Below are positions 722 to 14,847 of a stretch of 36,568 bases of DNA, piece by piece (within the stretch, counting starts at the first letter, position 1; every line of letters begins with the position of its first letter). The position numbers and the translations under genes were made by a program. Source of the stretch: Peptococcaceae bacterium (GTDB taxonomy: Bacteria; Bacillota; DSM-12270; Thermacetogeniales; Thermacetogeniaceae); contig JAHFCR010000029.1 in NCBI GenBank assembly GCA_023249405.1, positions 1 through 36,568 of the forward strand, read 5' to 3'. Under the pieces are notes generated by a model. The model ran no database searches and had not been told where the DNA came from. It worked only from the letters and a program-made list of their open reading frames with translations.

Positions 722-1723
722 TTATAGCTTGTCGGCAATCGCCCTGGCCATCTCCGAGGATTTGGCGCTGCCGCCGAGGTCGTAAGTCAGTGTTTTACCT
801 TCGGTTAATACTGCTTCTACAGCTCGCGCGACGCGGGCAGCGGCCTCGTTCTCTCCGAGATGCTTGAGCATCAGAACCCCCGACAGAATAGTGGCCAGAG
901 GGTTCACCTTGTCCATCCCGGTGTATTTAGGGGCGCTGCCATGCACCGGTTCGAAGAGCGCTATCTGATCCCCGATGTTGGCTCCGGGCGCCACACCGAG
1001 ACCGCCGATCAGGCCGGCGCACAGGTCCGACAGGATATCCCCATACAGGTTGGGCATCACCAGCACGTCAAAATCTCCAGGGTTCTGAACCAGCTTCATG
1101 GAGCAGGCATCCACAATCCGGTCCTCAAAGGTGATCTCCGGATACTCCCGGGCGATCTCCCTGGCTACGTCGAGAAACAAGCCATCAGTGCACTTCATGA
1201 TATTGGCCTTGTGGACCGCAGTCACTTTGTGGCGCCCCTCTTTCCGGGCCAACTCGAAGGCAAAGCGCACGATCCGGTCACAGCCGAAACGGGTGATGAT
1301 CTTGATGCTCTCGGCAGCGTCCTTGCCCACCATGTGCTCAATGCCGGCGTAGACGTCCTCGGTATTTTCCCGCACCAGCAGGATGTCTACATCCTCATAC
1401 CTGGTCTTGACGTTGGGCAGGCTCTTGGCCGGCCGCAGATTGGCGTACAGGTCGAGTTCCTTGCGCAAAGCCACATTGACGCTGCGGAAGCCCTTGCCCA
1501 CCGGCGTGGTCAATGGTCCCTTCAGGGCCACCCGGTTGCGCCGGATCGATTCCAGCACATGTTCCGGCAGCGGTGTGCCATACTGATCGATCACTGCTTC
1601 CCCGGCCTCTACAACCTCCCACTCGATCCCGGCGTTGGCGGCATCGATCACGATCCGGGCCGCCCTGGTCACATCAGGGCCCGTACCGTCACCAGGGATC
1701 AGAGTTACTTTATGCTTAGCCAT
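722..1723 (-). CDS. icd: Isocitrate dehydrogenase (isocitrate/isopropylmalate dehydrogenase family)
   Basis: A beta-decarboxylating dehydrogenase of 333 residues, predicted to convert isocitrate to 2-oxoglutarate. The substrate loop reads S81-V-N83 followed by [13 protein letters not shown]. The Ser and Asn are the isocitrate-binding signature; isopropylmalate and homoisocitrate dehydrogenases have other residues here. The nucleotide loop HGSAPKYTG carries Lys266-Tyr267, which in E. coli ICDH (K344/Y345) select NADP; NAD enzymes usually have Asp-Ile. The third E. coli NADP contact (R395) looks like Gly here, so the coenzyme remains open. ATG 1723 is preferred because GGAGG sits 6 bases upstream; ATG 1729 would abut the Shine-Dalgarno sequence. 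It is the last gene of the four-gene operon, 131 bases after the small aconitase subunit. Annotation as leuB is the main alternative and fits the loop poorly. Confidence 0.85.
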
Positions 1724-1854
1724 ATCCATCCTCCATGTCAGTGATTATCTACTCCATAGAAACAGCCTGTTGGCACTACAGTCAGCAGCGCTATATACTT
1801 CTTGCGCCATGCCGGCAGGATAGTGCTCCGTCTCGGCCGGAGAGGTAATCCTCT

Positions 1855-2355
1855 TTAATCGATATTGAAAGTCCCATACTTGCGGAAATGAGCGGCCAGG
1901 CCGCCATCCCCCAGCACCTTGAGCATGAATGCGGGCAGGGGCTTGATCGGCGTCTCGGCTTTTCTAGTCAGGTTTCTGAGCACCCCATTTTCCAGGTCCA
2001 CCAGCAGTTCATCGCCGGCGGAGATCCCCGAAGTGTCGCATTCTACCACCGGCAACCCCGTATTGATGGCGTTCCGGTAGAAGATGCGGGCAAAGGACGG
2101 CGCCAGCACCGCCCCCACCCCGGCATTCAATAGGGCCAATGGCGCCTGCTCCCTGGAGGAACCGCAGCCGAAGTTGCGGCCGGCGATTACCAGATCGCCG
2201 GGCTGCACTCTTGTGGCGAAGTCCGGGTCCAGATCCTCCATGACGTGGCAGGCCAGCTCTTTCATGTCCAGTGTTTTAAACTTGTACTTGCCCGAGATGA
2301 TGTAATCGGTGTTGACGTCAGCACCGAAGCAGTGTGCTTTTCCCTGCAGCTTCAT
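1855..2355 (-). CDS. Aconitase-family small subunit (LeuD/homoaconitase type)
   Basis: The swivel-domain subunit (166 residues) of a two-part hydro-lyase related to isopropylmalate isomerase, archaeal homoaconitase and LeuCD-like aconitase. It should pair with the product of the gene just upstream. Visible motifs are GADVNTDYI near residue 11, the substrate-specificity loop YKFKT at 24-28, and GCGSSRE at 63-69, the typical active-site Ser/Arg segment. The specificity loop resembles the YLRT type of homoaconitase more than a standard LeuD loop (recalled from family work, not computed). A strong AAGGAGG lies 8 to 9 bases before the ATG. The substrate is inferred from the neighbours: with an isocitrate-type dehydrogenase next to it, citrate/isocitrate is most likely. 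LeuD of leucine synthesis is the alternative, but no leuA- or leuB-type gene is beside it. Confidence 0.8.
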   Translation of the reverse strand: MKLQGKAHCFGADVNTDYIISGKYKFKTLDMKELACHVMEDLDPDFATRVQPGDLVIAGRNFGCGSSREQAPLALLNAGVGAVLAPSFARIFYRNAINTGLPVVECDTSGISAGDELLVDLENGVLRNLTRKAETPIKPLPAFMLKVLGDGGLAAHFRKYGTFNID

Positions 2356-2410
2356 CCCGCCTACCTCCTTTTACTGGGATGTGAGAGATACGAGGCGCGA
2401 GGTGAGATTC

Positions 2411-3679
2411 TCATTTCACATATTCCCTGGGATCGGTGATAGCGCCGGTGAGGGCGGAGGCCGCCACAGTCGCCGGGGAGGCCAGGTAGATAAAGGCCTT
2501 GTTGTTGGCCATCCGCCCCTTGAAATTACGATTGGCCGTGGAGATCACGTTCTCACCGTCGGCGGGAATACCGTTGTGCGTCCCCACACAGGGGCCGCAA
2601 CCCGGTGTCACCAGCGCCGCTCCGGCCTTCACCAGATCCTGGATAATTCCCTCGTCCATGGCCTCCAGCAGGATGCGCCGGGAGGCCGGGGCTACGATCA
2701 ACCGCACCTCCGGGTGCACCCGGCGCCCCCTGAGAATGCCGGCGGCAATCCTCAGGTCTTCAATACGGCCATTGGTGCAGGTGCCCAGAACCGCCTGTTG
2801 GATGGGAGTGCCGGCAACCTCGCCGATCGGCGACACGTTATCCACCCGGTGCGGTTTGGCCACCTGCGGTTCCAGCTTGCCGGCATCATATTCCAGAACG
2901 CGGGCATAGACCGCATCCCGGTCCGGGCTGACCGCTTCAAAACTCCTGTCCCCGGAGAGCGCCCGATGCTCCCGCACCCAGGCCCAGACCTTGTCATCGG
3001 CCTCCATCAGGCCGGCCTTGGCCCCCATCTCGATCGCCATATTGGCAATGGTAAAACGGGCATCCACGGACAGGGCGTCGATCGCCTCACCGGTATACTC
3101 GGCCGCCATATAGGTGGCGCCATCGGCGGTGACCTGGCCGATCAGGAACAGGATCAGGTCCTTGGAGTAAACTCCGGCCGGCAATAGTCCGTTGCAGACA
3201 AACTTGATGCTTTCCGGCACCTTGAACCACATCTGGCCGGAGATCAGTCCGGCTGCCAGGTCGGTGGAGCCCACCCCCGTGGCAAAGGCGTTCAGGGCGC
3301 CGTAGGTGCAGGTGTGGGAATCGGCGCCGATCACCAGATCTCCGGGGCCGACGTGGCCTTTCTCGGGCATCAGTTGGTGGCAGACCCCCTCGCCGATGTC
3401 GTAGCAGATCATCTGCTGTTCTTTGGCAAACGCCCGCATCAGGTGGTGGAGGGCGGAGACCCCCTCGATCGGGCTGGGGGCGCTGTGATCGATCACCAGG
3501 GCCGCCTGCTCCGGGTTGGACACCTGTTGCCCCCCCATCTCCTCGAACGCCCGGATCGCCAGGGGGGATGTTCCATCCTGCCCCATGCGAAAATCCAGCG
3601 TGGCGACCACCAGGTCGTTGGTATAGGCATCCTGGCCGCTCTTCCGGCTCAGGATCTTCTCTGCTATGGTCTTTCCCAA
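2411..3679 (-). CDS. Aconitase-family large subunit (LeuC/homoaconitase type)
   Basis: The [4Fe-4S] catalytic subunit (422 residues) of a heterodimeric hydro-lyase. Three cluster-binding cysteines are visible: Cys301 in GTCTNGR, and Cys361 and Cys364 in PGCGPC. GADSHTCTYG, a family hallmark, lies near residue 124. The length matches the bacterial/archaeal LeuC2-HacA subfamily. The start is set at TTG 3679 because AGGAGG lies 8 bases upstream and the product then begins MGKTIAEKIL, as LeuC-family proteins do; a TTG at 3697 would overlap the ribosome site. It follows the NifV-like synthase by 26 bases and precedes the small subunit by 55 bases, so all are surely co-transcribed. The predicted role is citrate-isocitrate interconversion; homoaconitate or isopropylmalate hydration cannot be excluded from sequence. 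Confidence 0.82.
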   Translation of the reverse strand: MGKTIAEKILSRKSGQDAYTNDLVVATLDFRMGQDGTSPLAIRAFEEMGGQQVSNPEQAALVIDHSAPSPIEGVSALHHLMRAFAKEQQMICYDIGEGVCHQLMPEKGHVGPGDLVIGADSHTCTYGALNAFATGVGSTDLAAGLISGQMWFKVPESIKFVCNGLLPAGVYSKDLILFLIGQVTADGATYMAAEYTGEAIDALSVDARFTIANMAIEMGAKAGLMEADDKVWAWVREHRALSGDRSFEAVSPDRDAVYARVLEYDAGKLEPQVAKPHRVDNVSPIGEVAGTPIQQAVLGTCTNGRIEDLRIAAGILRGRRVHPEVRLIVAPASRRILLEAMDEGIIQDLVKAGAALVTPGCGPCVGTHNGIPADGENVISTANRNFKGRMANNKAFIYLASPATVAASALTGAITDPREYVK

Positions 3680-3705
3680 ACGATTGTCCTCCTGCAAGTA
3701 GTTAA

Positions 3706-4836
3706 TTATCGGCTTTTAGCCTTGAGATAATCCTCGTAGATGAAGACCAGTTCCTTGTCGAACAGGGGACGTTTGAGTTCCACGGCAGCCTTCTTGACAT
3801 AGACCAGAATGTCGTTGGCCTCCTCGTCCGTCAGGTAATGCCCGTATTCCTCGAACTTGGCCTTGATGGAGTGGCTGCCGGAATGCTTCCCGATCACGAT
3901 CTGGCGGGTCAGACCGACCTCTTCGGGGCGGAAGGCCTCGTAGTTGCCCGGGTTTTTCAGGACGCCGTCGGCGTGGATGCCGGATTCATGGGCAAACACG
4001 TTGGAGCCCACGATCGCCTTCCAGACCGGCAGCTCCCGGCTGGAGGCCAGCGACACATACTCGGCCAATTCCCGGAACTTGGCGGTCTTAAAACTCAGGT
4101 CGATCCCGCCCAGGCACTTCAGAGCCATGACCACCTCTTCCAGGGCGGCATTGCCGGCCCGCTCCCCCAACCCGATCACGGTCACCCCGACCCATTTGGC
4201 ACCGGCTCTGACACCGGCCAGGGCATTGGCCGTGGCCATGCCGAAATCGTTGTGGGTGTGCATCTCCACGTCGATGCCCACCGTGCTGATCAGGTTTTCC
4301 ACCTGCGACAGGGTGGTAAAGGGGTCGAGGATGCCGACGGTATCGCAGAAACGCAACCGGTCGGCGCCGGCATCCTTGGCAGCCTGGGCAAATTCGGACA
4401 GGAAGGCGGGATCGGTTCTGGAGGCGTCTTCAGCGTTTACCGATACGTAAACATCGTGCTGCTTGGCAAATTCAGTAGCCCTGGCCATGTTCGACAGCAC
4501 CTGGCTTCTGGTGCTGCGCAGCTTGTGCTCGATGTGAATGTCCGAGGTGGGGGTGGAGATGGCCACCGCGTCCACGCCGCAATCCAAGGATGCCTCGATA
4601 TCCCTGATCTCGGCGCGGTTCCAGCCCATGATGCTGGCCCGCAGGCCCAGCTTGCAGATCTCCGTGATCGCTTCTTTCTCATGGCCACCCATCACCGGAA
4701 CTCCGGCTTCGATCTGATCCACACCGACATCGTCCAACATCTTAGCGATGCGGACCTTTTCCGGATTGGAAAAAACCACGCCTGCCGTCTGTTCACCGTC
4801 TCGCAGCGTGGTATCGACAATCTTGATCTGGCTCAT
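3706..4836 (-). CDS. NifV/homocitrate synthase-like enzyme, candidate Re-citrate synthase
   Basis: A TIM-barrel acyl-CoA condensing enzyme of 376 residues in the isopropylmalate/homocitrate synthase family. The N-terminus carries DTTLRDGEQ with the catalytic Arg12-Asp13, and the metal-binding HTHND has His193 and His195. GIHADG occurs near residue 287. The protein lacks the long C-terminal LeuA regulatory domain, so leucine-type feedback is unlikely. The closest recognisable type is NifV, but no nitrogenase gene is nearby. It is the first gene of an operon with aconitase-like subunits and an isocitrate-type dehydrogenase. Known Re-citrate synthases of anaerobes (Clostridium kluyveri, Dehalococcoides) belong to this family and are often mis-annotated as homocitrate synthase. 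The ATG has AGAGGTGA about 7 bases upstream. The family is certain; the substrate is inferred from context. Confidence 0.8.
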   Translation of the reverse strand: MSQIKIVDTTLRDGEQTAGVVFSNPEKVRIAKMLDDVGVDQIEAGVPVMGGHEKEAITEICKLGLRASIMGWNRAEIRDIEASLDCGVDAVAISTPTSDIHIEHKLRSTRSQVLSNMARATEFAKQHDVYVSVNAEDASRTDPAFLSEFAQAAKDAGADRLRFCDTVGILDPFTTLSQVENLISTVGIDVEMHTHNDFGMATANALAGVRAGAKWVGVTVIGLGERAGNAALEEVVMALKCLGGIDLSFKTAKFRELAEYVSLASSRELPVWKAIVGSNVFAHESGIHADGVLKNPGNYEAFRPEEVGLTRQIVIGKHSGSHSIKAKFEEYGHYLTDEEANDILVYVKKAAVELKRPLFDKELVFIYEDYLKAKSR

Positions 4837-4966
4837 ACCATCTCACCTCTCTCATCTGTTCTAGCCAATCCCAACTGCTCTGCCATTGCCACTATTTACA
4901 TGCAGCCAACCTGTCGCTGCAGTGATCCTTGCCAGTTTGCCTGACGGCTATTGGCCGCGGCTCTGA

Positions 4967-4992
4967 CAAAAGCCCGATCATCGTTGATCAGG
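4967..4992 (-). terminator. Probable intrinsic terminator after gatB
   Basis: On the minus strand an 8-base stem (one G-T pair), a 4-base loop and then CTTTTG follow the gatB stop within about 5 bases. The arms are 4973-4980 and 4985-4992. The U-tract is short. It separates gatCAB from the downstream citrate-type operon. Confidence 0.55.
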
Positions 4993-4996
4993 AATG

Positions 4997-6451
4997 TCAT
5001 ACTCGCTCTTTGATCAGCCTGTTGACCAGTTGCGGGTTGGCCTGGCCCCGGGTCGCCTTCATGACCTGGCCGACCAGGAAGGTCAGCGCCTTCTCTTTCC
5101 CATTGCGATAATCCTCCGCCACGCCGGGGTGGTCCTCCAGCACCTGCCGCACCACGGCGCCCAGTTCCCCCTCGTCGCTGATCTGCACCAGGCCTCTGGC
5201 CTTGACGATCTCTTCAGGCCTGCCGCCGGAAAGAAACATCTCCTCAAAGATGGTCTTGGCGATCTTGCCGCTGATAGTCCCCTGATCGATCAGTTTCAGC
5301 ATCGCCACCAGGTGCGACGGGGTCAGCCTGCTGGCCGCCACTTCCAGGTTGTGCGCCTTCAACAGCTTAAGGAACTCGCCCATCACCCAGTTGCTGACCA
5401 CTTTCTGGTCGTGATAGGCGGCGACACAGGCCTCGTAGAAGTCGGCGAGCGCCCGGGAACCGGTGAGCACGCCGGCATCGTAGGCAGGCAGGCCGTAATT
5501 TGCCATGAAGCGCTGCTGTTTGGCGGCCGGCAGTTCCGGCAGTTCAGAGCGCACCCGATCGATCAGCTCAGGACCGATCACCAGGGGAACCAGGTCCGGA
5601 TCGGGGAAATAGCGGTAATCAGAGGCCTCTTCCTTGATGCGCATCTGCACCGTGAGGCCTGACGCCTCATCCCATCCTCTGGTCTCCAGGAGAAACTGCC
5701 CGCCCTCTGCCAGGATGGCGCTCAAGCGCTCCGCTTCTCCAGCCAGAGCATGCTGCACCGCCCGGAAGGAGTTCATGTTCTTGACCTCCGATTTCGGGTT
5801 CAGCACCGTGGATCCCACCGGCCGGACCGAGATGTTGGCGTCGCAGCGCAGTGAGCCCTCCTCCATCTTGCAGTCGGAGATATCGATATATTCCAGAATA
5901 GCCTTCAGCTTCTCCAGGTAAGCCCGGGCCTCTTCCGGCGTCCGCAGATCCGGTTCGGAGACGATCTCCAGCAGCGGCACTCCGCAGCGGTTGACATCAA
6001 CCAGGGAGTAGTCGGTCCCGGCCTCCCCGTGCATCAGCTTGCCGGCGTCCTCTTCCATGTGCACCCTGGTAATGCCGATGCGCCGCGCCCCCGGACGTTC
6101 GCCGCCATCCACCGCTACGTCCAGGTAGCCGTTCCGGCAGAGGGGCAGGTCATACTGGGAGATCTGGTAGTTCTTGGGCAGGTCCGGGTAGTAGTAGTTC
6201 TTCCGGTCAAATTTGCTGAACGAGGCGATCTCGCAGTTCAGGGCCAGGCCGGCCCGCAGGGCATACTCCAGCACGGTCCGGTTGATCACCGGCAACACGC
6301 CGGGCAAACCCATACAGACCGGACAGACGTTGGTGTTCGGCTCGCTGCCGAACTCGTTGGGGCAGGAGCAGAAGGCCTTGGTTCTGGTATGCAGTTCAAC
6401 GTGCACTTCCAGACCGATGACCACCTCATACCGGTCATTATAGCCGGCCAT
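4997..6451 (-). CDS. gatB: Asp-tRNA(Asn)/Glu-tRNA(Gln) amidotransferase subunit B
   Basis: The tRNA-binding and kinase-like subunit (484 residues) of the GatCAB complex. GatCAB amidates misacylated Glu-tRNA(Gln) and/or Asp-tRNA(Asn), so that glutamine or asparagine enters translation without a dedicated synthetase. The N-terminus [13 protein letters not shown] and the zinc cysteines (CSC near residue 28, CPVC near residue 43) are diagnostic. [16 protein letters not shown] follows near residue 91. The C-terminal part ([15 protein letters not shown]) is the helical/YqeY-like tail that contacts tRNA. Its ATG overlaps the end of gatA by 14 bases, which suggests translational coupling, and a G-rich ribosome site precedes it. 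Length and order (gatC-gatA-gatB) are typical of Firmicutes. Confidence 0.97.
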
Positions 6452-7982
6452 GGCTGTCCCCCCCTTCCCGCCCGGCCGGGCTTACAGCAGCATGGCCCCG
6501 TTTGAGGGGGGCCCGGTCCTGATGATAGGGCGTGTCCTGTTCAAAGGCATGGGCGATACGCAGCAGTGTTCCCTCCGAGAAAACCGGCCCCATCAACTGG
6601 AGCCCCACCGGCAGGCCATCTGTATAGCCGCAGGGAATGGAGATGGCAGGAATGCCGGCCAGGTTCACCGGAATCGTATAGACATCCGAGAGGTACATGG
6701 ACAGGGGATCATCCGACTTTTCCCCCAACCGGAAGGGAGGCGTGGGAGATGTCGGCGAGACTATGGCGTCAAACTGGTCGAACAGTCGATTGAAGTCATC
6801 CCTGATCAGGGTTCTGAGCTTCAGGGCCTGCAGGTAGTAGGCATCGTAATAGCCGGAACTGAGGGCGTAGGTGCCCAGCATGATGCGGCGCTTGACCTCC
6901 GCTCCGAAACCCTGGCTGCGGGTGTTCGTGTACATCTCCATCAGGTCGTAGGCGCCGCCGTTCTCCGCCACTGCCCGGTAGCCGTAATGAACACCGTCAT
7001 AACGGGCCAGGTTGGAACTGGCCTCGGCGGGAGCGATCAGATAATAGCAGGGCACGGAATATTCAGCGTGGGGGAAGGAGCACTCATCCACTACTGCACC
7101 CAGACCGGCCAGCTTACCCAGGGATGCTTTCACCGCTTCAGCCACGGCAGAATCCAGGCCGTCGCCAAAAAACTCCCGGGGTACGCCGATCCGCAACCCC
7201 CTGATCTCTCCGGTGAGGAAAGCGGTATAGTCGGGCACCGCCCCGAGCCCGGCGCCGGGCGCCGAAGTGGAATCCAGGGGGTCGTAGCCGGCGATCAGGT
7301 TGAGTACCAGGGCACAGTCCCTGACGTCCTTGGTCATGGGGCCGATCTGGTCGAGGGACGAGGCGAAGGCCACCATCCCGTAGCGGGAGACCAACCCGTA
7401 GGTGGGCTTGAGCCCGACGATGCCGCACAGGGAGGCGGGTTGCCTGATGGAACCACCGGTGTCGGTGCCCAGAGCGTAGGGAGCCTCTCCCGCAGCCACC
7501 GCTGCCGCTGGCCCGCCGCTGGAGCCTCCCGGAACGCGGCTCAAGTCCCAGGGGTTGTGGGTGGGGAAAAAGGCCGAGTTCTCTGTGGATGAGCCCATGG
7601 CGAACTCGTCCATGTTCAGTTTGCCGGTAAAGACCGCCCCCGCCGCCGCCAGTTTCTCTACTACCGTAGCGCTGTAGGGCGGTATAAAATGCTCCAGCAT
7701 GCGGGAAGAGCAGGTAGTACGTATACCACGCGTGCAGAGCACGTCTTTTAGACCGGCCGGAACCCCGGCCAGGTAAGGCAAGTCCTTGCCCTGTCTGCGT
7801 TCCCCGTCAACCTGGCGGGCAGCCTCGTAAGCCTGTTCCTCGGTAATGGTGACGTAGGCTTGTATATCCGGCTCCACGTCATGGATCCGCTGGAAGATCG
7901 CCCCGGTCACCTCTTCGGAGGTCATCTCGCCCCGCTGAAGCAGGTCTGCCAGTTCATGGGCTGTGAGATCATAAATCTCCAT
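6438..7982 (-). CDS. gatA: Asp-tRNA(Asn)/Glu-tRNA(Gln) amidotransferase subunit A
   Basis: The glutaminase subunit of GatCAB, an amidase-signature enzyme that frees ammonia from glutamine and channels it to GatB. With the start at ATG 7982 the Ser-cisSer-Lys triad falls at Lys79, Ser154 and Ser178, the numbering known for the S. aureus enzyme. The supporting motifs are [16 protein letters not shown] and [14 protein letters not shown] lies 7 bases before this ATG; an ATG at 7985 is the close alternative, and the in-frame ATG at 8000 has no ribosome site. The product is 514 residues, slightly longer than average at the C-terminus, where an Arg/Gly-rich tail reads through the gatB start. It lies 94 bases after gatC. 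Confidence 0.97.
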
Positions 7983-8076
7983 CATCAAGCCTCTTTTCAT
8001 TCGCTAAAGCCATAGCGAGAATTGCCTTGCCGGATGTATTTTTATGGCCATCAGACGGGGCATCGATTGCGGATTA

Positions 8077-8361
8077 TTAGAGGATGCGCGGCACCCTGAA
8101 GTAGCTTCCGTCCCGGTCCGGAGCGTTCTGGAAGACGTCGTCCGGCGCCAGCGTCGCCCCTCTCTCGTCCAGGCGGGAGACATTCTGCAGCGGTAAAACG
8201 TGGTAGGTCGGATCGACCCTGGTGGTATCCAACTGGTTGATCCGGTCGGCATATTCCAGGATAGAGCTTAACTGCGCCCCGAAACGCTCTTTCTCCTCCT
8301 CGCTCAGGGCAAGGCGAGCCAACAGGGCCACGTGCTCTACTTCCTCCATGCTGAGCTTCAC
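8077..8361 (-). CDS. gatC: Asp-tRNA(Asn)/Glu-tRNA(Gln) amidotransferase subunit C
   Basis: The small subunit (94 residues) that wraps around and stabilises GatA in the GatCAB complex. The sequence begins VKLSMEEVEHVALLARLAL and contains the helix pair and the DPTYHV-like linker (TRVDPTYHVLP) of the family, ending in the short VPRIL tail. I chose GTG 8361 because AAGGTGG lies 9 bases upstream and the resulting N-terminus matches GatC proteins; a longer reading from 8406 adds 15 unsupported residues. It is the first gene of the gatCAB operon, with a sigma-A-like promoter about 50 bases upstream. Confidence 0.95.
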   Translation of the reverse strand: MKLSMEEVEHVALLARLALSEEEKERFGAQLSSILEYADRINQLDTTRVDPTYHVLPLQNVSRLDERGATLAPDDVFQNAPDRDGSYFRVPRIL

Positions 8362-8411
8362 TAGAAATCGCCACCTTAAAATGCTGCTTAACCTGACAAA
8401 AACCATGCCTA

Positions 8412-8440
8412 ATTATAGCAGAAGCGCCAAAACCCCGCAA
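8412..8440 (-). promoter_or_regulatory. Sigma-A-type promoter of gatCAB
   Basis: On the minus strand TTGCGG (8435-8440), a 17-base spacer and TATAAT (8412-8417) with an extended-10 TGC just before it. This is close to the vegetative consensus. The predicted start is near 8405, giving a leader of about 44 bases to the gatC GTG. Confidence 0.7.
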
Positions 8441-8585
8441 CGTGCCAGGATGTTGAATGCTGTATACAATATTACGGCCAGTGCCCTGGGCTGGCGCTGC
8501 TAAAATATGGTATGCTATAAAAAATAGTAAGCGCTGAAGAAAGTGCTGCCGATCAGAGAAGATTTTTAATAAGGAGGTGCGATCA

Positions 8586-9080
8586 ATGCACGATCAAGAG
8601 CTGCAGATCCTTAAAACCGCCGTCATCAACGAGATGGAGGGCGAGCATTTCTACCGGCTGACCGCTGCCAGCAGTAAGGACGAGGGTGTACGCCAGGCGT
8701 TTCTGTTCCTGGCGGATGAGGAAAGCAAACATCAAGGCTGGTTGAGGGCAATGGCAAGTCAATTGACCACTGCCGATAGCACGGTCCCAGGCCCTCATGA
8801 CGTGGAACTGACGACACCGCAGCATGGCATCTTCGATCGATTTAAGCCAGGGCCGGAAACCGGCTCGCTGGCCGTCTCCGCCTTTCACATCGGCATTCTG
8901 CTGGAAAAGGCAGCGGTTGATTATTACCGTGAAGCGGCCCGGCAGACCACCCATGCAGCCACCCGCCAACTCTATGAGAAACTGGTAGAATGGGAGTTGC
9001 GGCATCTGGAGGCTTTTGAAAAAGTGTATGATGACCTGAAAGAGGAATGGTGGCAACAGCAGGGATTTTCGCCGTCCTGA
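8586..9080 (+). CDS. Ferritin-like (rubrerythrin-type) diiron protein
   Basis: A four-helix-bundle protein of 164 residues with the carboxylate-bridged diiron pattern. Helix one has Glu18 and Glu20 near HFY, then Glu46-x-x-His49 in ADEESKH. In the second half come a Glu in ILLEKAAVDYYR and a second ExxH in EWELRHLE. Rubrerythrin and related proteins use this pattern to reduce peroxide or handle iron. No C-terminal rubredoxin Cys4 domain is present, so an electron donor would have to be a separate protein. The start is ATG 8586, with a perfect AAGGAGG 8 bases upstream. It is a single gene, divergent from gatC and convergent with ligA. A possible promoter is GTGCCA-N17-TACAAT at 8442-8470, and an extended-10 TGCTATAAA lies near 8514-8521; neither is strong. 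The exact activity is unknown. Confidence 0.85.
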   Translation: MHDQELQILKTAVINEMEGEHFYRLTAASSKDEGVRQAFLFLADEESKHQGWLRAMASQLTTADSTVPGPHDVELTTPQHGIFDRFKPGPETGSLAVSAFHIGILLEKAAVDYYREAARQTTHAATRQLYEKLVEWELRHLEAFEKVYDDLKEEWWQQQGFSPS

Positions 9081-9117
9081 GCCCGCCCGTCTGGTTCTAC
9101 AGGTAAGTGATTGCTCG

Positions 9118-11172
<2,055 letters not shown>

Positions 11173-11302
11173 TTATCAAATAATTTTCGGCAACAGATTG
11201 TTAATAAGACTCCGGTGGATCGCCGGTAAATGGCAGCTGCTTACAAGGCATCCACTATCTATTATCCCCGCTATAGTCGCGCGCTATCACGGCAGGCCGG
11301 TC

Positions 11303-11989
11303 CTATTCAAACGTGTGAATGCTGATGCAGGGATCGGCCTTCAAGGCGTAATATCTTTTTTCCCGGCCGATGATATTGGACGCCTGTAATTCCTTGAGCG
11401 CTTTTACAACCATCACCCGTGAAGACCCGATCATATCCGCCAGTTCCTGCTGGGTGATTCTCAGATCGATCACCGTCGAGCCCGTCCCTTTCCGGCCATA
11501 CTGCTCAGCCAGGCTGTAGAAACGCCTCAACAGCCTCTCTTTTACCGTTTGGCCGGCACCCTTGCCGGTCTTGACAATGCTTTCATAGCGCTTCTGACCA
11601 AGGTAGCTGATGATCCTCAAGGCAAACGAGGGGTCCTGTTTGATCAGCGCCTCGAATTGCTGCTTGCTAAAACAGCAGATACAGGCCTCTTCCATAGCTA
11701 TCGCGCTGGATGGTTCCTGTTGTTCCCGATACAGCGACAACTCTCCGAGAACCTCGCCGGGGCCGCACACATCCAGGATCGCTTCACGGCCATCCTCGGC
11801 CGTTTGCACAAGCTTCAGCTTGCCTGATTTGATCAGGAAGATAGTGTTAGTGGTTTCTCCCTGGAGAAAGAGGCAGCCTCCCCTGGACAGCTTTTTTCTC
11901 GTCGCGCACCGGCACAGGCTGCCAAACTGTTCTTTATCAAGCCCCTGGAACAGTTCCAGCTCCTGCAGGCAGATAATGCAGTGCTTCAC
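11303..11989 (-). CDS. Crp/Fnr-family transcription regulator with a Cys-rich N-terminus
   Basis: A 228-residue one-component regulator. Residues about 12-125 form a cyclic-nucleotide-binding-type beta-roll (GEVLGELSLY is the phosphate-cassette-like segment). A long dimer helix follows, then a winged helix-turn-helix (TQQELADMIGSSRVMVVKALKELQ). Cysteines at 4, 7, 26, 28 and 39 crowd the N-terminus; FNR and some relatives use N-terminal cysteines for an Fe-S cluster, so redox or metal sensing is possible but unproven. The cAMP-contact Arg-Ser pair of true CRP is not evident (the segment reads EQQEPSSA). The start is a GTG after AGAGGGG. A possible extended-10 promoter lies about 45 bases upstream. 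Its neighbour, the DUF1638 operon, has a Crp/Fnr-like palindrome upstream, so it is a plausible target. Confidence 0.9.
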   Translation of the reverse strand: MKHCIICLQELELFQGLDKEQFGSLCRCATRKKLSRGGCLFLQGETTNTIFLIKSGKLKLVQTAEDGREAILDVCGPGEVLGELSLYREQQEPSSAIAMEEACICCFSKQQFEALIKQDPSFALRIISYLGQKRYESIVKTGKGAGQTVKERLLRRFYSLAEQYGRKGTGSTVIDLRITQQELADMIGSSRVMVVKALKELQASNIIGREKRYYALKADPCISIHTFE

Positions 11990-12066: not shown

Positions 12067-12111
12067 AAAAAAAGCACGATGATCCCGCTTCCAGAGTTGG
12101 GATCATCGTGC
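12067..12111 (-). terminator. Strong intrinsic terminator of the DUF1638/FMN-barrel operon
   Basis: A perfect 13-base stem (12074-12086 paired with 12099-12111) with a 12-base loop, followed on the minus strand by a run of seven T (12067-12073). It lies 13 bases past the stop of the FMN-barrel gene and isolates that operon from the Crp/Fnr gene. Confidence 0.9.
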
Positions 12112-12124
12112 AGTTCAGAAAGAT

Positions 12125-12436
12125 CTACAGCAGGGGATCCGCCTGCTCGGCCTTGAACAGGACCAGTTGCCCCTCCACGCTGGCCTTGCCGGTCAGCCTG
12201 AAACCTTTGGGCCCGCCCTCCATCGAGGAGATGACCACCTGCATCCTGCCGTTTTCGCCAATATTTTTTCTGGTGACGTCCATCTTGTAGACGCCAAACC
12301 CTAAGACATCCCCATCCCTGACCTCCGCCACCTTCCCCACCACGATCAGATGCGGCTCTCCCTGGGCAGACACGGTGACGATCGGAACAAACGGGGCTTT
12401 GGTGATCAGGTCCTTGATCTCTTCGTTGACAACCAT
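12125..12436 (-). CDS. Small pyridoxamine-phosphate-oxidase-like FMN-barrel protein
   Basis: A compact split-barrel protein of 103 residues. It begins MVVNEEIKDLI, runs through the first strands (APFVPIVTVSAQGEPHLIVVGK) and has a further strand pair near GRMQVVISS. Proteins of this fold usually bind FMN, or sometimes F420 or haem, and reduce small molecules or act as flavin carriers; the exact substrate is not predictable. AAGGAG lies 9 bases before the ATG. It follows the DUF1638 gene by 55 bases and ends at a strong terminator, so the two form one operon. Co-transcription suggests a shared pathway, possibly flavin- or redox-linked. At 103 residues it is shorter than classic PdxH and lacks its C-terminal part, so it is not the vitamin B6 enzyme. 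Confidence 0.8.
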   Translation of the reverse strand: MVVNEEIKDLITKAPFVPIVTVSAQGEPHLIVVGKVAEVRDGDVLGFGVYKMDVTRKNIGENGRMQVVISSMEGGPKGFRLTGKASVEGQLVLFKAEQADPLL

Positions 12437-12491: not shown

Positions 12492-13115
12492 TCAACCGCC
12501 GGCAGCACCGGCTGCCGGTAATTCCGCCAGAGCTGTTTTCAACATTGCAGTCACATTTTTTTGGAAATTAGTGAGTTCAACTTTTTCGATTTCGATCGGC
12601 ACCTGGGTGTATTCGAAGAATGACAGGATGGCATCATCTTCAATGCTGCCGACCCCTGTGTCCAGGAGCAGGATCTTGTCATAGAAACCGAAGTTCTGCC
12701 TGGCGTCTATATCATCCCAACCCTGGCCCTGCCTGAAGATCTGGTCCCAATTCTGCAGCCAGCCGGGGGTGAGATAGAATACCCGGGCGGATTTTTCGAT
12801 CTCCTGCATCCGCTCTTTGCCCAGGATCAGTTCGACGCAGTTGCCGGGGGTTGGTCTCACAACGCCATAATGCTCTGTAAACTCACCGATCTCCGGATGA
12901 CACATAGAGCCGAAAAGGAGCACTGTCCGGTCTGCGGTCACGGCATCCAGCGCTGCAGTGATACCTTCCTTGAGCCGGTCGTAGTCTACGTGCAAGGCCG
13001 GCGCCACGTATGCGATCTCGATCCCGTCCTCCAACGCCTGCTCCGCCTTGATCTGCTCCAGGACCAGTTCCAGTTCCGGCTGAAAGATACCGCAAGCCAC
13101 AATGCATGCCTCCAT
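12492..13115 (-). CDS. DUF1638 family protein of unknown function
   Basis: A 207-residue soluble protein that begins MEACIVACGIFQPELELV, which I recognise as the DUF1638 N-terminal strand and loop. Other conserved-looking segments are VLLFGSMCHPEIG (a Gly/Cys/His cluster about residue 90) and LTPGWLQNWDQIF. Cysteines sit near the N-terminus, in GSMCHP and in GNCVEL, and could bind a metal or a corrinoid; this is a guess. Homologues occur in methanogens and strict anaerobes; from memory some lie near corrinoid methyltransferase genes, but none is present here. The start is ATG 13115, since GGAGGTGAT lies about 7 bases upstream; a longer reading from 13193 has no ribosome site. It is the first gene of an operon with the FMN-barrel protein. 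A Crp/Fnr-like palindrome lies about 100 bases upstream. Confidence 0.78.
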   Translation of the reverse strand: MEACIVACGIFQPELELVLEQIKAEQALEDGIEIAYVAPALHVDYDRLKEGITAALDAVTADRTVLLFGSMCHPEIGEFTEHYGVVRPTPGNCVELILGKERMQEIEKSARVFYLTPGWLQNWDQIFRQGQGWDDIDARQNFGFYDKILLLDTGVGSIEDDAILSFFEYTQVPIEIEKVELTNFQKNVTAMLKTALAELPAAGAAGG

Positions 13116-13216
13116 CTTAGAAATCACCTCCTCCCCGAACTGTCTCGGAATCGAACCGTTGGGATCTGATAAAAAAGCCATCCTACGATGCATCTTAACG
13201 CGGTTTTACAAAATAA

Positions 13217-13236
13217 AATGTTAAATTTTTAACATT
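13217..13236. promoter_or_regulatory. Crp/Fnr-geometry palindrome upstream of the DUF1638 operon
   Basis: A 20-base inverted repeat with 8-base arms (AATGTTAA and TTAACATT) and a four-base centre. Written as half-sites it is TGTTA-N6-TAACA, the same spacing as CRP (TGTGA-N6-TCACA) and FNR sites. On the minus strand it directly follows a TTGATT hexamer that could be a -35 element, but no good -10 is spaced correctly. It could be an operator for the Crp/Fnr protein encoded about 1.2 kb away. Confidence 0.5.
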
Positions 13237-13500: not shown

Positions 13501-14796
13501 TTACCGGTCTGACGGGGCGTCCATGGCAATGATCCGGTTCTCCCAGGTACGCAGTAGCAGTCTACCGCCCTTCTTGCCGATCATATAGCGGGGAGCGATG
13601 GGTATTTTTCCGTAGCCACCGGGAGCGTTAATGATATAGGTAGGCACCGCCAGCCCGGAGGTAAAACCGCGCAGGTGTTCCATGATTTTCAGCCCATCAT
13701 CGACAGGGGTGATAAAATGGCTGGTTCCCTTAACGTTCTTGGCATGGAAAATGTAATACGGACGTACCCGTATTTTCAGCAGTTCCTGGTTGAGTTTTTT
13801 CATCACGTGCGGCTGGTTGTTGATCCCGCGCAGCAACACCGACTGGTTGCCGAGCACGGCTCCCGCCTTGGCTAACATGTCACACGCCTGCTTGGCCTCT
13901 GGAGTGATCTCCAGGGGGTGATTGAACTGGGTGTTGATATACAGAGGCGGGTACTTGTCCAGTATCGCGCAGAGGTTAGGGGTAACCCGCTGGGGCATGG
14001 TGACCGGCACTCGCGTCCCCAGGCGCTTGATCTCTACATGCGGGATGCTGTGCAACTCATGCAGCAGCCAGTCCAGGACCTGGTCGTCCAATAGCAGGGC
14101 ATCTCCCCCGGTGACCAGCACATCCCTGATCTCCTGGTTGGCACGCACATAGTTCAGAGCCGCTATCAACTGGAGATGCGCCAGGTGCTGGTCGCGCTGG
14201 CCAATGTTGCGGCGGCGCTGACAGTGACGGCAGAACATGGCGCACTGGTTGGTCACGTTGATGATCAACCGGTCCGGATAGCGCCTGGTCACGCCCGGGG
14301 CGGGCGAGGTCCACTGCTCGGCCATCGGATCATCCTCACCGTCCTGGTCGTTCACTTCCGGCAGCGAGGGAATCGCCTGCTTCCAGAGGGGGCCAAATGG
14401 CCGGTCACTCATGATCAGGGCCAGGTAATAGGGAGAAATTGCCCAGCGCAGGTGTTTGCCCACTTCAGCTAGTTCCTGCTTTGCAGCTTCATCCAGGGGC
14501 AGTAGGGCGGCCAGGGTCTCCACATCGGCGATCCGGTGCCGGAGCTGCCAACGCCAGTTGTTCCAATCGGTTTCCCAGCCGCTCAAATATTCCAGGATCT
14601 TAGCCTGCGCCGCGGCAAATTCATCCGCCAGGTCAAAACCGGTACGAATTGTTTTCTTCGCCTCAAGATACTCTTCAATCAGTTCTCTCAGGACGTCGGC
14701 TCTAGACAGAGCCGACGCAGCCCTGGCCGATTCTGTTGCCCTGCTAACGTCGTTGACAGGTAGCTCCTCAGCCATACTGTAAGCTCTGGCAGCCAT
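13501..14796 (-). CDS. KamA-family radical SAM aminomutase, probably glutamate 2,3-aminomutase
   Basis: A PLP- and radical-SAM-dependent 2,3-aminomutase of 431 residues. The Cys185-x3-Cys189-x2-Cys192 motif (CAMFCRHC) binds the [4Fe-4S] cluster and SAM. GWETDWNNWRWQ and the ending APGGYGKIPI (which holds the PLP-lysine region) are family landmarks. After the barrel strand the sequence reads YYIFHAKNVKG, where lysine aminomutases read YQCD. In glutamate 2,3-aminomutase the lysine-binding aspartates are replaced, one by Asn; the pattern here agrees. The likely product is then beta-glutamate, a compatible solute. No beta-lysine acetyltransferase (ablB) or lysine fermentation gene is adjacent. 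The start is ATG 14796, after AAAGAGGTG. It has about 40 extra N-terminal residues compared with lysine aminomutase, rich in Ala, Arg and Glu. It is apparently a single gene. Confidence 0.85.
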   Translation of the reverse strand: MAARAYSMAEELPVNDVSRATESARAASALSRADVLRELIEEYLEAKKTIRTGFDLADEFAAAQAKILEYLSGWETDWNNWRWQLRHRIADVETLAALLPLDEAAKQELAEVGKHLRWAISPYYLALIMSDRPFGPLWKQAIPSLPEVNDQDGEDDPMAEQWTSPAPGVTRRYPDRLIINVTNQCAMFCRHCQRRRNIGQRDQHLAHLQLIAALNYVRANQEIRDVLVTGGDALLLDDQVLDWLLHELHSIPHVEIKRLGTRVPVTMPQRVTPNLCAILDKYPPLYINTQFNHPLEITPEAKQACDMLAKAGAVLGNQSVLLRGINNQPHVMKKLNQELLKIRVRPYYIFHAKNVKGTSHFITPVDDGLKIMEHLRGFTSGLAVPTYIINAPGGYGKIPIAPRYMIGKKGGRLLLRTWENRIIAMDAPSDR

Positions 14797-14817
14797 CTCA
14801 TGCACCTCTTTTTTTTG

Positions 14818-14847
14818 AAAATAGTTCACTTATTCTTGCTTTGCCAA
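14818..14847 (-). promoter_or_regulatory. Possible promoter of the aminomutase gene
   Basis: On the minus strand TTGGCA (14842-14847), an 18-base spacer and TATTTT (14818-14823). The match is moderate, and the leader would be only about 15 bases, barely enough for the ribosome site at AAAGAGG. Confidence 0.35.

Follow-up and report, generated by a model that had tools for sequence, protein, structure and literature searches.

The window analyzed here is the whole stretch of 36,568 nucleotides from the draft genome of a Peptococcaceae bacterium (3.57 Mb, 168 contigs, 98.76% complete). Three genes stand in a row on its minus strand. The first encodes a DUF1638 protein (12492-13115) that passes the Pfam cut-off for this family (PF07796, 107.6 bits, cut-off 27, E 7.5e-31). 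The second encodes a protein of 103 residues (12125-12436) that likewise passes the cut-off for the PNPOx superfamily (PF01243, PNPOx_N, 33.3 bits, cut-off 28.1, E 6.9e-8). The third encodes a regulator (11303-11989) that belongs to the Crp/Fnr superfamily, as it has both the cNMP_binding domain (PF00027, 80.1 bits, cut-off 27.5) and the HTH_Crp domain (PF13545, 46.6 bits, cut-off 27). A preliminary description of this DNA had named the three genes in this order, with an FMN-barrel type protein in second place, and the Pfam profiles confirm it. The strong terminator that had been claimed before the regulator gene was also found (12067-12111, minus strand). It is an intrinsic terminator with a hairpin (12074-12111; 13-bp stem, 12-nt loop, -23 kcal/mol) followed by T7. 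A simple terminator scanner that allows loops of 3-8 nt reported no terminator in the window; the loop of this stem is 12 nt. In 11 loci with the same gene order, folding gave a hairpin of -17 kcal/mol or lower before a T-rich stretch in five cases, a weaker one in five and none in one.

The start of the DUF1638 gene matters for the layout of the promoter. The open reading frame, when it is extended mechanically, reaches to 13193, and this start would lie inside a -10-like hexamer (13192-13197). A Shine-Dalgarno-like GGAGGTGA (13124-13131, minus strand) precedes the ATG at 13115, and homologous DUF1638 proteins begin near this ATG. Thus, the true start is probably 13115, not 13193, and about 104 nt would then separate the end of the operator described below from the start codon. 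A gene for a glutamate 2,3-aminomutase (13501-14829, minus strand; TIGR04368, 676.5 bits, cut-off 650) precedes the operator. At 722-4836, also on the minus strand, a gene for a NifV-type homocitrate synthase (TIGR02660, above cut-off) stands in a row with three others, encoding the large and small subunits of an aconitase-family enzyme and an isocitrate/isopropylmalate dehydrogenase. These four genes are perhaps a 2-oxoadipate-type pathway.

The candidate operator is an inverted repeat at 13217-13236, centered between 13226 and 13227, and its prediction rests on the palindrome and on conservation elsewhere. The TGTTA-N6-TAACA palindrome described earlier at this place is real. Its exact core, TGTTAAATTTTTAACA, lies at 13219-13234, and nine of the ten arm pairs match. 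In a scan of the window with up to two mismatches, five palindrome matches were found for 3.51 expected, which is the level of chance. A search for further sites in the genome had been proposed as a check. The exact form TGTTAA-N4-TTAACA occurs once, here; the forms with one mismatch occur at four places, as do those of the reversed control. When the site is combined with the motif TAnnnT of the -10-like element, the only exact match in this genome, among the matches listed, is the operator in the window. With up to one mismatch there are two matches against two for the reversed control, again among the matches listed. We did not use the one-mismatch composite matches as evidence, because in many genomes those listed were no clearer than the reversed control. 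Since the loose matches in the window and in its genome are at chance level, the case for a palindrome that is not due to chance rests on other genomes. One other exact TGTWAA-N4-TTWACA exists in this genome (contig C114, about position 1501). It precedes a Lin0512-family gene by about 240 nt and is absent from the listed matches to the site plus TAnnnT.

We therefore turn to the relatives. The subfamily of DUF1638 seen in the window is present in 33 of 398 genomes drawn from the phylum. The scan of named genomes gave 71 loci, or 72 with the window. The named and unnamed sets of loci overlap and are not independent, and two of the loci (L031 and L124) are one contig. Profile searches of the 72 loci found a Crp/Fnr gene in 41, a PNPOx gene in 37 and a gene for an MTH865 protein in 20. 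The co-occurrence of DUF1638, PNPOx and Crp/Fnr genes in other genomes, suggested earlier as a check, is borne out, and in 11 of the 71 named relatives the three genes have the same order as in the window (L114, L115, L117-L121 and L123-L126; ten Desulfosporosinus and one Thermacetogenium). For example, this order is kept, with 60-62% identity, in a member of the same family (G016, whose contig is also that of L124, Thermacetogenium sp. UBA4966). Of the 33 genomes with the DUF1638 subfamily, 19 have MTH865, versus five of the 365 others (Fisher 2e-19), and none was found in the window's own genome. Two loci (L154 and L163) have two Crp/Fnr genes each, around genes for F3, DUF1638, F4 and MTH865, together with several sites. 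In another (L085, 7466-8050) the DUF1638 gene has an in-frame TGA at a glycine position, which marks a broken copy or a sequencing error. Selenocysteine in DUF1638 was considered from in-frame stops in tblastn matches and rejected. Four cases were translated; three stops lie outside the reading frame and the fourth is the one in L085 at the glycine position.

Conservation of the palindrome before orthologous operons had been set beforehand as a test of the operator. The palindrome is conserved, and at a fixed distance to a -10-like element. We counted matches to TGTNAA-N4-TTNACA with up to one mismatch within 200 nt upstream, took 40 shuffles as the null, and kept only family hits with E of 1e-12 or lower and genes with at least 100 nt upstream. 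A site was found upstream of 30 of 75 DUF1638 genes, a count that includes second copies and fragments within one locus (shuffle mean 1.02, maximum 3), and 45 of the 75 have none at this threshold. The same holds for 15 of 20 MTH865 genes (shuffle mean 0.45), 9 of 36 PNPOx genes (0.78), 7 of 44 crp genes (0.55) and 3 of 6 genes for the Fer4 protein F3 (0.05). No site was found at MerR (0/3), F4 (0/12) and F7 (0/3), with shuffle means of 0.05, 0.10 and 0.03. Control genes had 4 sites in 262, none exact. In a non-redundant set of 43 loci, in which identity of DUF1638 was capped at 80% and the members are still related, the operator lies at 18 of 46 DUF1638 and 11 of 14 MTH865 genes. In a looser scan of the window and 35 loci, the counts were 23/34 for DUF1638, 14/16 for MTH865, 9/14 for PNPOx, 11/27 for crp and 58/411 for other genes.

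The sites follow the regulator gene. Among the non-redundant loci, TGTWAA-N4-TTWACA was found before module genes in 25 of the 28 that have a local Crp/Fnr gene versus 1 of the 15 that have none (Fisher 1.2e-7). The tests used here ignore phylogeny, and where two genes diverge from one promoter its site may be counted twice. Among all 72 loci, five have a Crp/Fnr gene and no site (L151, L178, L180, L181 and L182), and five have a site with no Crp/Fnr gene detected (L122, L130, L139, L149 and L161). The exact site is rare, with 0 to 4 occurrences per genome in nine genomes. Fifteen of these were inspected. Six are at DUF1638 or MTH865 genes (G000, the genome of the window, and G016, G019, G132, G076 and G066), one in G219 is beside an open reading frame with the SRVMV helix discussed below, one in G076 appears by eye to lie between crp-like and PNPOx-like frames, and seven have no evident link to the module. 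The crp gene in the window has no site in the 300 nt before it and thus is not a predicted target there; the crp genes of some other lineages do have upstream sites. The earlier proposal that the local regulator controls the operon is supported, as the palindrome is conserved upstream of orthologous operons and tracks the local Crp/Fnr gene. From these comparisons, the palindrome is very probably the operator of the regulator encoded next door.

The distance between the operator and the promoter is also conserved. The -10-like hexamer TAAGAT (13192-13197, minus strand) starts 29 nt after the operator center. When the sites are aligned by their centers, TAnnnT begins 29 nt after the center in 83% of 63 sites. 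Counts of spacing need at least 40 nt downstream, which takes the sites from 67 to 60 and the non-redundant ones from 47 to 41. In these sets TAnnnT is at +29 in 49 of 60 and 32 of 41, compared with 0.033 (3.3%) at other offsets. By gene, the non-redundant counts are 12/15 for DUF1638, 7/8 for PNPOx, 10/11 for MTH865, 2/5 for crp and 1/2 for F3. Of the 11 DUF1638 sites listed for Desulfosporosinus, eight have TAAGAT at this offset as well. A -10 hexamer occupies -12 to -7, and an operator with this spacing is thus centered near -41.5 of the predicted start, which is the position of a class II activator. The target palindrome of CprK is described as centered 41.5 bp upstream of the transcription start (PMC7062800). 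We suggest that the promoter in the window is a class II Crp/Fnr-dependent promoter, a prediction made from its layout.

The recognition helix of the regulator agrees with the site. SRVMV, the helix of the regulator in the window, is found in 34 of 43 Crp rows, with one-letter variants in three more. In L180-L182, three of the loci without a site, the helix reads AHRVS. Of the remaining rows, two gave no helix match and one (L124) took a wrong stretch. Arg-180 of CRP is associated with G3 of the site (PMC1274295), and Val-192 of CprK, at the position of FNR Glu-209, is described as setting a pyrimidine requirement (PMC2610375). Thus, an Arg followed by a Val agrees with TGT followed by A/T pairs. 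The regulator in the window has cysteines at 4, 7, 26, 28 and 105, among others, and the proteins of this type in Desulfosporosinus and Thermacetogenium have C4, C7, C26, C28, C75 and C105. FNR proper has an N-terminal C-x2-C-x5-C and one distant cysteine. This spacing is not that of the regulator in the window, where C4 and C7 are followed by C26 and C28, and the FNR site TTGAT-N4-ATCAA is different from TGTTAA-N4-TTAACA. Thus, the regulator is probably not FNR proper, although it may have a cluster of another geometry. HcpR2 of Clostridium and others is also of the Crp/Fnr family with a small local regulon and, in the cited description, a similar consensus, GTAAC-N4-GTTAC (PMC1274295). However, where HcpR2 has C:G at the third base pair counted from the spacer and Pro at helix position 181 (PMC1274295), A:T and Val are found here, so that neither the site consensus nor the helix is that of HcpR2.

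Other lineages use another regulator for the same genes. Among 36 named loci with PNPOx, 20 have Crp/Fnr only, 14 have HxlR only, none has both and two have neither; these counts cover redundant loci, several of which are near-identical. A cysteine-rich HxlR protein stands in for Crp beside the DUF1638/PNPOx pair in Treponema, Acetobacterium and others (L127, L131, L133, L134, L140, L142, L143, L166, L167, L171-L173, L175 and L176). All 14 of these adjoining regulators have an N-terminal cysteine cluster, and two were checked by Pfam (PF01638). Because Crp and HxlR were not found together in these loci, DUF1638 and PNPOx may be the working core of a module with an exchangeable regulator. The window-type Crp/Fnr proteins, the HxlR proteins and a MerR protein are all rich in cysteine, and they may plausibly respond to a redox or metal signal. 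Against such a signal stand the Crp/Fnr proteins of the other type, which mostly carry just one N-terminal cysteine together with a C-x-C near 105-107.

What the operon does is approached through its company. The activase RACo (PF14574, RACo_C_ter) is found in 218 of the 398 genomes, that is, in 32 of the 33 with the DUF1638 subfamily versus 186 of the 365 without. The sole exception among the 33 (G358) has DUF1638, PNPOx and Crp/Fnr with no RACo match. A RACo gene lies immediately upstream of DUF1638 in two loci (L073 and L130); no Crp/Fnr gene was detected in either, and a site was found in L130 but not in L073. The window's own genome has a DUF1638 paralogue of the same subfamily (42% identical; contig C18, locus L032), with a cobalamin riboswitch about 310 nt before it. 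This contig of 11.9 kb has four cobalamin riboswitches (2168-11792) and also a gene for a corrinoid adenosyltransferase. The profiled genes of the window itself include no corrinoid gene. A DUF1638 mutant of Phaeobacter inhibens is rescued by methionine, and the gene distribution follows that of a RamA-like gene (PMC5764234); this fitness study made no specific functional proposal (PMC5764234). DUF1638 has been linked to RamA-type corrinoid reactivation in P. inhibens and Ruegeria pomeroyi (PMC5764234, PMC12478193). The protein in the window is likewise of PF07796. Unlike these, it is under predicted local Crp/Fnr control, and its branch is only about 20% identical to canonical copies of its own family. 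The canonical copies lie in repeated cassettes of shared gene clusters, and the genes around them look like corrinoid methyltransferase genes. In the subfamily, C34, C98 and C119 are invariant in both alignments (27 and 52 proteins) and H68 in the alignment of 27 proteins only; when canonical copies are aligned as well, all 12 proteins share C34, E40, H68, C119, G144 and W145. The C-terminal half of F3 matches PceA (E 9.3e-15) and QueG (E 9.6e-10). Our best guess, from co-occurrence, neighborhood and the published phenotype of other DUF1638 genes, is that the DUF1638/PNPOx operon may serve the maintenance of corrinoid (B12). The system had earlier been suggested to depend on redox state or anaerobiosis; the physiological evidence, which is indirect, favors upkeep of corrinoids over anaerobiosis as such.

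The fold of DUF1638 was also considered as a guide to function. The structure model is confident (pLDDT 88.5). The best Foldseek match has E 7.9e-4 and TM 0.34. In VIA-align, the best match is an atypical asparaginase (Z 10.1 over 115 residues), and unrelated proteins with two lobes score nearly as high. We did not take a function from either. A sequence search of the PDB gave nothing better than E 0.11 with the DUF1638 profile and no matches with PNPOx.

A different function could be served by the same operator and regulator. DUF1638 and PNPOx could be a defense pair against oxidative, nitrosative or electrophile stress, and this would fit the cysteine-rich nature of the three regulator families beside the module and the FMN_red proteins in some loci. 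The methionine-rescued phenotype speaks against it, though it belongs to another DUF1638 gene and not to that of the window (PMC5764234), as do the co-occurrence with RACo and the riboswitch-linked paralogue, neither of which bears on the window gene directly. We regard defense against stress as unlikely.

A second alternative concerns the operator itself, which could be a Rex site by which the operon is repressed in response to NADH/NAD+. Its core equals the clostridial Rex consensus as given, TTGTTAA-N4-TTAACAA (PMC9600882), and 32 of the 33 genomes with the DUF1638 subfamily have a Rex domain. Among the matches listed, one genome (G247, C7:95736-95778) has a similar site about 130 nt before its rex domain, and a site in G219 (1645184) is within 1 kb of a Rex domain. 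Some of the genome-wide matches are thus probably Rex sites. However, no PF06971 (Rex) match was found in the window's own draft genome, which is 98.76% complete. The module sites track the local Crp/Fnr gene, their fixed distance of 29 nt to the -10 element resembles the geometry of an activator, and position 4 of the site is A, not T, in 35 of 47 non-redundant sites. Thus, control of this operon by Rex is improbable.

Similarly, the regulator could sense an organohalide or a similar aromatic compound, as CprK/RdhK of Desulfitobacterium does, with the module serving reductive dehalogenation. Both proteins are of the Crp/Fnr family and have Val at the position of FNR Glu-209, and the predicted position of the palindrome here, -41.5, is that given in the accounts of CprK (PMC2610375, PMC7062800). 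CprK (2h6c) is matched by the regulator in a PDB sequence search (E 1.3e-14), and F3 resembles PceA and QueG. However, GlxR-like and CRP chains outscore CprK in that search, and the dehalobox is given as TTAAT-N4-ATTAA (PMC2610375), which is not the TGTWAA-N4-TTWACA found here. F3 is short, occurs in 11 of 36 loci in one set and 6 of 72 in the named set, and is not beside the window genes, among which, as profiled, there is no full-length dehalogenase gene. We consider a dehalogenation module very improbable. That the palindrome is a functionless AT-rich repeat, as the chance level of loose matches in the window would allow, is hardly credible given how it is conserved across other genomes, where it goes with a nearby Crp/Fnr gene and keeps its spacing to the -10 element.

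The computations show that the operator and the gene set are conserved, that the operator keeps a fixed distance to a -10-like element and that it goes with a Crp/Fnr gene nearby. Binding by this regulator, activation and a corrinoid role are what we infer. The Crp/Fnr dimer encoded at 11303-11989, switched on by some signal, would bind the palindrome at about -41.5 and, acting as a class II activator, recruit RNA polymerase to the DUF1638-PNPOx unit, which the terminator would partly set apart from the crp gene. The regulon would be very small in this genome, perhaps limited to this promoter. Together, DUF1638 and the small protein of the flavin family would most likely keep a corrinoid enzyme or protein active, alongside RACo-type activases. 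We consider this model as a whole, from operator to corrinoid upkeep, to be likely.

The kind of system is already known. In the open-licence literature, we found no description of this regulon as to its motif, its target set and the swap of its regulator. Tentatively, it may be an undescribed corrinoid-maintenance regulon of anaerobes, in which cysteine-rich sensors of the Crp/Fnr (SRVMV), HxlR and perhaps MerR families alternate over a divergent DUF1638 and a small PNPOx-type flavin protein. MTH865 and a short iron-sulphur protein like reductive dehalogenases and QueG would then be lineage-specific, and the signal would be the redox loss of, or damage to, the corrinoid. This wider proposal is possible, and we hold it with less confidence than the model for the window. 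DUF1638 and MTH865 are families without an assigned function, and they gain here a likely regulator, operator and promoter layout, all of them open to test in anaerobes that have been cultured, among them Desulfosporosinus, Sporomusa and Acetobacterium. If the corrinoid reading is true, the effector of the regulator would reveal how these bacteria sense the state of their B12-type cofactors.
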